Of a stretch of 64,000 nt of DNA, positions 20,395-22,487 are shown in pieces. Position 1 is the first letter of the stretch, and each line of letters begins with the position of its first letter. The notes under the pieces are model-generated. The model saw only the letters and a list, made by a program, of their open reading frames with translations. It made no database searches and was not told where the DNA came from. Made by a program: the position numbers and the translations under genes. The stretch comes from Siderastrea radians. Taxonomy: Eukaryota > Cnidaria > Anthozoa > Scleractinia > Rhizangiidae. The stretch covers positions 64,887,630 to 64,951,629 of the forward strand of contig OZ024887.1 of the NCBI GenBank assembly GCA_964017195.1, given 5' to 3'.

Positions 20395-20706
20395 ATGGCA
20401 ACAAGACAAAGTCGACGGTTGAGAGGTGCTGCCCCCGAAATTTCTCCATCGTTTACTTGTTTTGTGTGTCGAGACACAGAATTTACCTGTGCCAATACAG
20501 TGGAACGCCTCTCTTGTTGTAACAACTTTGTGCATCGACGATGTCAACGACGATGGATCCAACACCAAATCACTTGTGGTTTATGTCGTCAACCTCTTGT
20601 CTCTACCACCCCGCGTTTACCTGTGACTTCCATGACACGATTACAAATTATTCAACGATTGGAAGACTTACTGGAATCGGATGAATTACAACAACACATC
20701 GAAGAA
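20395..20706 (+). CDS. RING exon of a spliced, multi-ending gene (RING gene 2, exon 1)
   Basis: 104 codons from the first ATG after the TATA box. After a basic start (RQSRRLR) comes a RING domain: C22, C25, C41/C42, H47, C50, C61, C64. A linker helix (about 80-104) with LQIIQRLEDLL leads to Glu-Glu, where the exon stops at a consensus donor GTAAGT (20707) in phase 0. Reading through gives only a short intron-coded tail and a stop. The first acceptor is at 20772, an intron of 66 bases. The five downstream segments are all open in the matching phase. Role inferred: an E3 ligase whose C-terminal partner-binding module is chosen by splicing. Confidence 0.8.
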
Positions 20707-20772
20707 GTAAGTGTTCTGTTTTTATCTCTGGTGGTCAAACCCCCCTCATAACACTGGTTTTTTACTCTCTAG

Positions 20773-21060
20773 TGTACTGATCAAGAACTACGCACCTTAT
20801 ATTATTATTCCATCACTTTTCCTACGACGGTACAAGACTCTCTTGTTATCATCCTGGGGCGTCCTTATTTTCAACATCTTGCTCTGGGCATCACCATTCA
20901 ACTCTGTTATGGACTCCCAGATAACATTCGTACCATTCGATACCATCGGGTGGAATACGATCGGGAAGGGACTTTTCTTCTTGACATGACGGGACCACCT
21001 AGACATCACGGGATCGTCCTACGTTCCCATCGACACGTCGAACTACTTTCCTTTTTTTGA
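20773..21060 (+). CDS. Alternative terminal segment A of RING gene 2 (95 codons)
   Basis: Preceded by a T/C-rich tract and CTCTCTAG. Open in phase 0 from the first base: it begins CTDQELRTLYYYSITF, has hydrophobic strands around GITIQLCYG and TFLLDM, and ends in TGA at 21058-21060, 7 bases before the next acceptor AG. It lacks an early ATG, so it must be reached by splicing. It is the most diverged of the five modules. Confidence 0.6.
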   Translation, partial: CTDQELRTLYYYSITFPTTVQDSLVIILGRPYFQHLALGITIQLCYGLPDNIRTIRYHRVEYDREGTFLLDMTGPPRHHGIVLRSHRHVELLSFF

Positions 21061-21067
21061 ATTATAG

Positions 21068-21526
21068 ATCGTTCCTTGTCATCAAGTGGTGGGACATTGG
21101 TTGACCCGAACTCGTGTTTATCCTTTAGCCCAAGATATCATCTCCATGTTAATTTATGCTCTTGGACTAAAACCTAGCACTTATCTCCAACGAGGTGAAA
21201 TCTTCATCAGTTTTCAACTCTATGGATGTCATCACGATCTCCACCACATTGAAACCATCGTACACTCTTTGGCTTTACCTCCAGAAAGTTATTGTTTTAA
21301 TTATCAATTTCAATCCTTCCTACGTGCCTTTCATCTCGCTGGCCCTTCCACCCTTCGTCATTTAATTTGTCGCATTTACGATGATGAACAACAACTTGCC
21401 CATCATGTGTACAATCCCAGTACCACTCGACTACAATGGACACACGCCACATATCCCCTCTACTATTCTTGGATGCATGACGATTTTGAAGGATGTTACA
21501 ATTTTCGCCTCTTACATGAACGTTGA
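21068..21526 (+). CDS. Alternative terminal segment B of RING gene 2 (152 codons)
   Basis: Follows a tract ending TTTGAATTATAG. Open in phase 0 for 152 codons. Contains the module pattern W, helix with QDIISMLIYAL, strand EIFISFQLYG, helix HHIETIVHSL, then LPPESYCFNYQF. An additional 60 residues follow. Stop TGA at 21524-21526 lies 11 bases before the next acceptor AG. Confidence 0.6.
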   Translation: MVPCHQVVGHWLTRTRVYPLAQDIISMLIYALGLKPSTYLQRGEIFISFQLYGCHHDLHHIETIVHSLALPPESYCFNYQFQSFLRAFHLAGPSTLRHLICRIYDDEQQLAHHVYNPSTTRLQWTHATYPLYYSWMHDDFEGCYNFRLLHER

Positions 21527-21537
21527 TTCTTTTTCAG

Positions 21538-21822
21538 TTCAATGATCATCGATGGCTCTCTACCGATATTGATTATCTGGCTGCTAACATTCTCACCGCC
21601 CTGACTACTATCGACGACGATGAATGGGACACCATTGAACTTTTCTTTCTACTCCACATTACGGGATCCCACTTTTTAGAACAATGGGTTGACTTGCATC
21701 ACACCAATCTACTGCATTGTTTACTACCATCTTCTCATGTGGCTTCTCAATATCGTTATGACTACCTTGTTGGAGATTGTCCCCATTATCGATTACAAGA
21801 AGTACACATCACCATCATTTAA
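21538..21822 (+). CDS. Alternative terminal segment C of RING gene 2 (94 codons)
   Basis: Follows GATTCTTTTTCAG. Begins FNDHRWLSTDIDYLA; strand TIELFFLLHITG; helix LHHTNLLHCLLP; strand QYRYDY; last strand EVHITII and TAA at 21820-21822. Closely parallels segment D in order and spacing of the hydrophobic blocks. Confidence 0.6.
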   Translation, partial: FNDHRWLSTDIDYLAANILTALTTIDDDEWDTIELFFLLHITGSHFLEQWVDLHHTNLLHCLLPSSHVASQYRYDYLVGDCPHYRLQEVHITII

Positions 21823-21840
21823 TGTTTCTTCTTGTTACAG

Positions 21841-22179
21841 GTCCATGCTCCTTGGTCCTGGCAAGAGGTCCACACACTTCTGGAACATTTACACACTCTC
21901 TATAGACATCATTGGCATGTGCACCATCTCTACCTTCGGCTGTTTTTTGTGCTAGAGGGACCCGCGCGTTTCTATGCCCAAACCTATCAACATCTACACA
22001 ACCTTGCTCATTTTTTATTACCTCATGCCATCTATACCATTGACTTTAACTACCATGAACAAGCCTGTTATCAAGCCTACAAAATCGTCACCTTTGAAAC
22101 CACGCTTCGCACTTATGTATCTCCTGATTTCTTTTTTAGAACTTTCCAAGATGGACCCTTGGCGATGTCCAGTATATGA
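21841..22179 (+). CDS. Alternative terminal segment D of RING gene 2 (112 codons)
   Basis: Follows TTTCTTCTTGTTACAG, a textbook acceptor. Begins VHAPWSWQEVHTLLEHL; strand LYLRLFFVLEG; helix YQHLHNLAHFLLP; strand YTIDFNYHEQ; later YKIVTFETTL. Its stop (22177-22179) lies beyond the acceptor of segment E, so the last two exons overlap. Confidence 0.6.
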   Translation, partial: VHAPWSWQEVHTLLEHLHTLYRHHWHVHHLYLRLFFVLEGPARFYAQTYQHLHNLAHFLLPHAIYTIDFNYHEQACYQAYKIVTFETTLRTYVSPDFFFRTFQDGPLAMSSI

Positions 22180-22487
22180 TGGATTGCATTCTCAATCATT
22201 TCGTCACTTATAACCCACATCATCCCTCGGGCTTTGGGCTTCGACACGAGATTGACTTTTTCCACATGGACATCTCCATTAGGGCCTGTTGTTGTCATCC
22301 TCCCTCGATTCATGAACTCAATGAAGATCTTCACGAATTATTTTCCTTTCTTTTCATCGATGAACCAAATGAACACTCGATGAGTTATCATCTCCAAATT
22401 TCTTGTTTATTAAACTCTGTTTCATGTCATGCTTTGCGGGTGGATGCATTTGATCTTGATATTGTCGCCGAACGAGTTGTTCCATGA
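22140..22487 (+). CDS. Alternative terminal segment E of RING gene 2 (115 codons)
   Basis: Follows GATTTCTTTTTTAG (AG at 22138-22139). Begins NFPRWTLGDVQYMMDCIL; strand IDFFHMDISI; helix HELNEDLHELFSFLF; strand SMSYHLQISCLL; end strand LRVDAFDLDIV, stop TGA at 22485-22487. The stop is fused to the polyadenylation signal AATAAA (22487-22492), which would serve all the alternative transcripts. Confidence 0.6.
   Translation, partial: NFPRWTLGDVQYMMDCILNHFVTYNPHHPSGFGLRHEIDFFHMDISIRACCCHPPSIHELNEDLHELFSFLFIDEPNEHSMSYHLQISCLLNSVSCHALRVDAFDLDIVAERVVP

Follow-up and report, generated by a model that had tools for sequence, protein, structure and literature searches.

In the T-antigen region of polyomaviruses, an N-terminal exon is spliced alternatively to different C-terminal parts, an example of a small DNA virus steering host pathways. 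Region E4 of adenoviruses yields 3′-coterminal RNAs from one upstream donor and several acceptors, and some of its products feed into the ubiquitin system. Adenoviruses and adintoviruses have a common capsid and protease ancestry. In animals, PML and TRIM isoforms, as the abstracts on them describe, carry an N-terminal RING-bearing part whose C-termini are varied by alternative splicing. Here we analyse a RING gene in a Polinton/adintovirus-like element of the coral Siderastrea radians, contained in a stretch of 64 000 nucleotides (contig OZ024887.1, positions 64 887 630 to 64 951 629; termed the window, to which all coordinates refer). The gene consists of one RING exon, one splice donor and five putative acceptors, each opening a stop-terminated reading frame (module). 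We consider it probable from the sequence that this is one viral unit with a single donor and alternative acceptors, encoding RING proteins with exchangeable ends. The narrower proposal, that alternative acceptors are used from the one donor, is predicted with high confidence.

The RING gene is like the T-antigen region in its shared N-terminal exon and alternative C-terminal ends, a likeness in layout that is set by description. It differs in that T antigens start with a J domain and not a RING, that only two to three products arise, and that the tails are not a row of similar-sized stop-terminated modules. With E4 it has in common the 3′-coterminal RNAs and the one donor with several acceptors, whereas E4 products have no shared N-terminal RING; Pfam and PDB searches with the modules gave no match to an E4 protein at E ≤ 10. 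PML and TRIM, again likened by description and from abstracts, are large multi-exon host genes, as opposed to a two-kilobase viral cassette. A shared N-terminus with alternative ends is as a principle already familiar: polyomaviruses, adenoviruses and the TRIM genes of animals have it (PML according to abstracts). For this virus group the architecture has not been described so far as our searches went: the parts covered of three articles (PMC11071296, PMC8363768 and PMC12220804) do not describe spliced RING genes in adintoviruses or Polintons, which is no proof of absence.

The RING exon (20395–20706, plus strand) comprises 104 codons from the start ATG at 20395 and ends in phase 0. A TATA box (TATATAAG, 20335–20342, plus strand) lies about 60 nt 5′ of the ATG. 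In Pfam the exon matched zf-RING_2 with an E-value of 4.7e-4 (20.8 bits, under the curated cut-off of 27.3). A profile of RING relatives detected 28 sequences in PDB at E ≤ 0.01, RING-H2 ligases with RLIM as the best (E 3.5e-7). The eight zinc ligands stand in RING order (C22, C25, C32, C41, H47, C50, C61 and C64) and are invariant in the seven sequences of alignment A4; the spacing around C41–H47 is unusual, and C22 is lost in one diverged locus (L017). Invariant in the same alignment are W54 and R65, which appear as W54 and R66 in alignment A13. The Trp, and the Arg after the last ligand, are presumably the residues contacting the ubiquitin-conjugating enzyme (E2) that are expected of an active RING ligase. 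On such residues, the RING is likely to be an active ubiquitin ligase (E3).

The exon ends at the shared donor GTAAGT (20707–20712, plus strand), which the earlier note on this DNA, made from the letters alone, had called a consensus phase-0 donor. In its full context, GAA/GTAAGT, this is the best donor of the region, scoring 4.83 against 2.22 for the runner-up GT in 20380–22540; the splice-site matrix used unfitted textbook frequencies. A database search with the RING frame gave 13 matches, one being the window itself, and some of these relatives, which come from other assemblies, may be the same copies as the genomic loci L009 to L011 treated below. Eleven, the window included, extend to the end of the exon; each continues with Val-Ser, as GTNAGY would be read, and loses similarity beyond it. 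P0131 stops earlier and P0133 lies in another frame.

Five acceptors follow on the plus strand, at 20753–20772, 21048–21067, 21518–21537, 21821–21840 and 22120–22139. They rank 1, 2, 3, 5 and 6 by score among all acceptors of the region, the fourth of the row being the strongest; the site of rank 4 (21284) falls within module 2. From each of the five, a frame runs in phase 0 with respect to the donor: module 1 (20773–21060, 95 codons plus stop), module 2 (21068–21526, 152 codons plus stop), module 3 (21538–21822, 94 codons without any Met, plus stop), module 4 (21841–22179, 112 codons plus stop) and module 5 (22140–22487, 115 codons plus stop), the last two overlapping. The distances from the stops of modules 1 to 4 to the next acceptor are 7, 11, 18 and −40 nt. 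The positions given in the earlier note for the RING exon, donor and acceptors were exact, as was its description of five acceptors each opening a phase-0 frame with its own stop close to the next acceptor. Its statement that the modules have no usable early ATG holds for module 1 (first Met at residue 72 of 95), module 3 and module 4 (residue 109 of 112), less well for module 2 (residue 27), and fails for module 5 (residue 13).

An AATAAA at 22487–22492 (plus strand) overlaps the stop of module 5 and is a likely common 3′ end; a further ATTAAA lies inside module 5 (local position 2115). The note had proposed one donor choosing among five terminal exons. The donor and the five phase-matched acceptors bear this out, and the separate ends do not, the sole AATAAA being that at 22487. 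As it stands at the very end, we prefer 3′-coterminal RNAs with alternative acceptors to terminal exons.

To judge chance occurrence, an acceptor plus a phase-0 frame of at least 90 codons was counted as one unit. The region contains five units. Among 138 other windows covering both strands of the element, 120 contained none, 15 contained one and three contained two. Of 2000 dinucleotide shuffles, 1888 gave no unit, 110 one and two gave two. The thresholds favour the region because they were chosen such that even its weakest unit just passed. Codon usage in the named frames was 0.12, 0.27, 0.23 and 0.24 bits per codon for modules 1 to 4, compared with 0.18–0.35 for nine of ten known genes, which were scored left-out; the tenth, encoding a GRF protein, gave −0.01. 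By this measure modules 1 to 4 are coding in those frames.

The genome (805 Mb in 439 contigs) yielded 17 matches to the RING exon. Of these, the window and 13 further loci were read, three weak ones being left out, and in 10 of these 14 loci GTAAG stands at the homologous phase-0 position. The window forms family A together with L009, L010 and L011. DNA identity to the window over the whole region is 90.0% for L009 and 89.1% for L010. Both retain all five acceptors, phase-0 frames and stops, including the Met-free module 3, and their modules 1, 3 and 4 are likewise devoid of a usable ATG. In both, the TAG of acceptor 5 doubles as the stop of module 4; at the stop of module 5, L009 has AATAAA and L010 has ATTAAA. 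L011 (RING identity 69%) has kept the donor, and the acceptors in front of its modules 2, 3 and 4 are intact. It also contains at least one additional frame resembling a module (137 codons), situated between modules 1 and 2; a good acceptor precedes it, and the same frame is also open for a stretch further upstream. The TATA box has the same motif and place in all three. When modules 4 and 5 were compared with the whole genome, only the four family A loci matched at E < 1e-6 (at E ≤ 1, one search gave five matches, the fifth at 0.93, and the other four).

Ratios of nonsynonymous to synonymous substitution rates (dN/dS) within family A were 0.11–0.42 in all 15 module comparisons: 0.11, 0.15 and 0.11 for module 1, 0.20, 0.18 and 0.18 for module 2, 0.42, 0.21 and 0.30 for module 3, 0.17, 0.22 and 0.32 for module 4, and 0.22, 0.29 and 0.40 for module 5. 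The upper bootstrap bound stayed below 1 in 14 of the 15, all except module 3 of the window against that of L009. By this measure, all five module proteins are under purifying selection in family A. The row might alternatively be what decay has left of a single long gene, interrupted by stops and frameshifts, as the element is a provirus and some copies (L011, L018) are visibly decaying. However, three copies that have diverged by about 10% have the same frames, stops and acceptors, the dN/dS values are low, and the same design recurs in a lineage with only 33–41% RING identity, leaving this explanation hardly any credit.

The copies also bear on serial splicing, by which the modules would be joined successively into one long RING protein. 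Their arrangement in one row, in the same orientation and behind one RING exon, is what such a protein would show. However, each module stop lies 7–18 nt before the next acceptor or overlaps it, in L009 and L010 as well, and there is no GTRAG inside the modules. The C-terminus of module 3 (HITII followed by the stop) is identical in all four family A copies, and conservation up to the last codon would be unexpected were this end part of an intron. Because the tiny or negative gaps are kept in the copies and conservation runs through the last codon, we regard serial splicing as very improbable, in agreement with the earlier note.

The modules could also be separate small genes, made without the RING by leader splicing or from internal ATGs. 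A second possible donor, GTAAGT at 20374–20379 (plus strand), lies upstream of the RING ATG and is kept in three copies (window, L009 and L010), and an ATG occurs at residue 27 of module 2 and residue 13 of module 5. Against this stand modules 1, 3 and 4, which have no usable ATG in the window, L009 or L010, and the absence of the leader donor from L011. Moreover, the acceptor phase fits the RING donor in five of five cases, which leader splicing would not require, and, the TATA box being at 20335, only a very short leader exon would be left. Separate small genes are improbable on this evidence, though less so than a serially spliced protein.

With alternative acceptors and one donor, expression could proceed as follows. 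The pre-mRNA would start below the TATA box at 20335 and probably end after 22487. In infected cells the spliceosome would join the donor at 20707 to one of the five acceptors, and the products would share an N-terminal RING with a short helix (20395–20706) and differ in their C-terminal domain. As all junctions are in phase 0, each message would encode the RING plus one module, stopping before or within the next acceptor, and the downstream modules would be left as 3′ untranslated RNA. Unspliced RNA would give a RING with a short tail terminating in the intron. The proximal acceptor has the lowest score of the five in the window (3.8), so that some transcripts could pass to later acceptors; in L010 the proximal acceptor is not the lowest-scoring. 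The modules may then select the targets, one ligase head being combined with several target-binding ends.

Elsewhere in the element, a direct repeat (17468–17519 and 17593–17644, 85% identical) has in each unit an acceptor-like TATTATTAG followed by ATG and may represent a second alternative-acceptor site. A second RING gene (19637–20143, minus strand; zf-RING_2, E 1.3e-6) is directed away from the first and is retained beside L009 and L011. At 517–1203 (minus strand) there is a weak SOCS-box match (E 0.005, below the cut-off), a further hint at ubiquitin pathways, with a relative near L011.

A second lineage, family B, consists of L014, L015, L017, L018, L019 and L021, with RING identities of 33–41% (tblastn). 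GTAAG stands at the homologous phase-0 end of the RING in all six loci, and the modules behind it (B1 to B3) are distinct from those of family A. A scored acceptor with a phase-0 frame of at least 75 codons was found three times in L014, twice each in L015 and L017 and once in L021. In L015 and L017 the B2 stop is the TAG of the B3 acceptor. Both lineages have viral neighbour genes. L014 adjoins a DNA polymerase B (PolB) gene whose product is 40% identical to that of the window and L021 an integrase at 44%, and so the cassette position in the family B element differs from that in family A. The relatives with the same donor and a variable number of modules that the earlier note had envisaged were thus found, in the extra frame of L011 and in the separate modules of family B. 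Because family A copies and the diverged family B share donor and module layout, one donor with a variable row of stop-terminated acceptor modules is, as read from these loci, a conserved gene architecture of these proviruses. Three family B copies (L015, L017 and L019) lie within 38 kb of a single contig (assembly C1:18353850–18391900).

In family C (L016 and L020; RING with 46–47% local identity), which also has viral neighbours (protease and ATPase genes), the RING is followed in the same frame and without an intron by another domain that looks helix–strand–helix–strand by eye. Each of the two loci is broken by its own lesion at a different point. A profile search linked this tail to none of the modules. 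Family C may encode a one-tail form of the same protein, with one fixed, intronless tail where the window gene has alternative modules.

Several observations weigh against a single donor serving alternative modules. In the window, module 5 has weak codon usage (−0.03; this is the best of the three sense frames, and one antisense frame reaches 0.03) as well as an early ATG, and splicing from the leader GTAAGT at 20374 might skip the RING exon. Of the four copies in family A, three are closely related, and in the fourth, L011, modules 1 and 5 are frame-broken and there is an insertion. Among the 14 RING loci, four have no GTAAG at the donor position: L012 has CAG/GTAAAT there but lacks a clear module, and a donor is absent from L013, L016 and L020. 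In family B, L018 and L019 are without any passing module, and neither in L015 nor in L021 does B2 have an intact AG from which it reads in phase 0. The RING frame itself is stop-interrupted in L019 and L021. Values of dN/dS in this family are 0.42–1.38 with wide intervals, all module intervals reaching 1, and part of its divergence is therefore decay. The filter that finds the modules also lists non-module frames. Finally, the modules of eight loci contain no inner GTRAG where 1.3 would be expected under synonymous shuffling (P 0.21). The note's remark that there is no other GTAAG donor is thus true of the modules and not beyond chance, and a further GTAAGT exists at 20374. Depletion of inner donors was rejected as evidence.

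The earlier note had regarded the modules as diverged copies of one module with a common order of structural elements. This order is good in modules 3 and 4, plausible in 2 and 5, and weak in module 1, which has no Trp. Profiles were tested on 34 real and 1020 shuffled decoy sequences. With the module 4 profile, all four module 3 sequences outranked the decoys (E 3.5e-6 to 3.1e-4, the best decoy being at 2.3e-3). With the module 3 profile, one of four module 4 sequences did so (5.1e-7; best decoy 4.9e-4). In the same search module 5 was at decoy level, and modules 1, 2, B1 and B3 were undetected. Homology of modules 3 and 4 is accordingly supported at the profile level, as these matches outrank all decoys, and common descent of all five is a guess. 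Using hhalign, every distinct module pair had a probability of at most 10%, although some scores exceeded those of permuted columns. When 11 module sets were compared profile against profile, each along with 12 column permutations, the outcome was suggestive and not decisive for the pairs 2–3, 3–4, 4–5, 4–Mx2, 4–B2 and B1–B2; the pair Mx1–Mx2, being one and the same frame, was discounted.

A protein search with module 2 gave three matches including the window, the relatives P0135 and P0136 being 44% and 64% identical. No confirmed locus came from scans of IMG/VR (RING alone, capsid, PolB alignment and two RING alignments). Confidence in the structure models was low (module 2 from three sequences, pLDDT 38.9; module 3 from two, pLDDT 50.1), and they were too poor to superpose. 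The module 3 model has the order helix–strand–helix–strand–strand, and a Foldseek comparison with the viral and PDB libraries yielded no match to it at E ≤ 0.001.

That the modules bind targets or partners has, in our estimate, an even chance. The genes may be spliced as described and the tails serve instead for the localization, stability or self-assembly of a single RING protein, or no more than one or two of the acceptors may be of importance; we give this a sizeable chance, though clearly less than even. It fits that Pfam and PDB profile searches found no domain match for any module. Purifying selection on all five family A modules speaks weakly against it, as do the differing module sets of the two lineages, which would be expected of recognition parts.

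In its fullest form, the proposal of alternative acceptors behind one donor describes a combinatorial viral ubiquitin-ligase cassette, in which a RING exon would be followed by exchangeable target-binding modules, at least three to six of them in tandem, the row growing and shrinking by duplication and loss. It would be tightly packed, a pyrimidine tract coding for the Phe-rich end of a module and one TAG serving as stop and acceptor, and old, occurring in two lineages with polymerases about 40% identical. For this whole we put the chance just short of even. If true, a small DNA virus could direct a single ligase head to different targets by compact means and would obtain several RING proteins from one gene, splice-site choice acting as the switch among stop-terminated modules. 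Viruses of simple animals would then possess a RING protein set of their own, dedicated, under selection and evolving, which likely records a conflict with the ubiquitin or immune pathways of the host. Such genes will escape gene callers because most modules have no start codon.

Genes of the element occupy positions 1–24300, and the remainder of the window resembles host DNA with repeats. PolB (1319–5299, minus strand; DNA_pol_B_2, E 3e-44 in Pfam) is of the protein-primed type by family, priming being predicted; its named matches, about 50% identical, come from the stony coral Oculina patagonica. The element also encodes an integrase with a chromodomain (8406–9491; rve, E 1.4e-14, and Chromo), a protease (13896–14429; Peptidase_C5, E 4.3e-5, above its cut-off), a packaging-type ATPase (14460–15113; Pox_A32, E 2.9e-4, just under its cut-off), a phospholipase A2-like protein (17017–17427) and the GRF zinc-finger protein. 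A capsid-sized open reading frame (ORF) of 493 codons (12412–13893) lies where a double-jelly-roll capsid gene is expected and has no Pfam match. Terminal inverted repeats of at least 40 nt spanning the element were not found in 1–30000; the left end may fall outside the window. On its gene content the element is a Polinton/adintovirus-like provirus.

Next downstream of the RING gene is a gene for an MSFYVTL-type protein (22534–23631, plus strand), which neighbours the RING gene also in L009 and L010 and adjoins L011 (as L022). The two strongest donor-like sites on the minus strand of the element, AAG/GTAAGT at 24075 and CAG/GTAAGA at 24146, are located in or just beside an ORF at 23621–24139, which may be another spliced gene. 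In the host DNA, three plus-strand ORFs of 202 residues (26672–27280, 36261–36869 and 52858–53466) may form a tandem gene family. The first begins like a signal peptide and weakly matches Noggin (E 0.008, below the cut-off); the other two are without a match. Reverse-transcriptase ORFs of a retroelement lie at 49052–52013.

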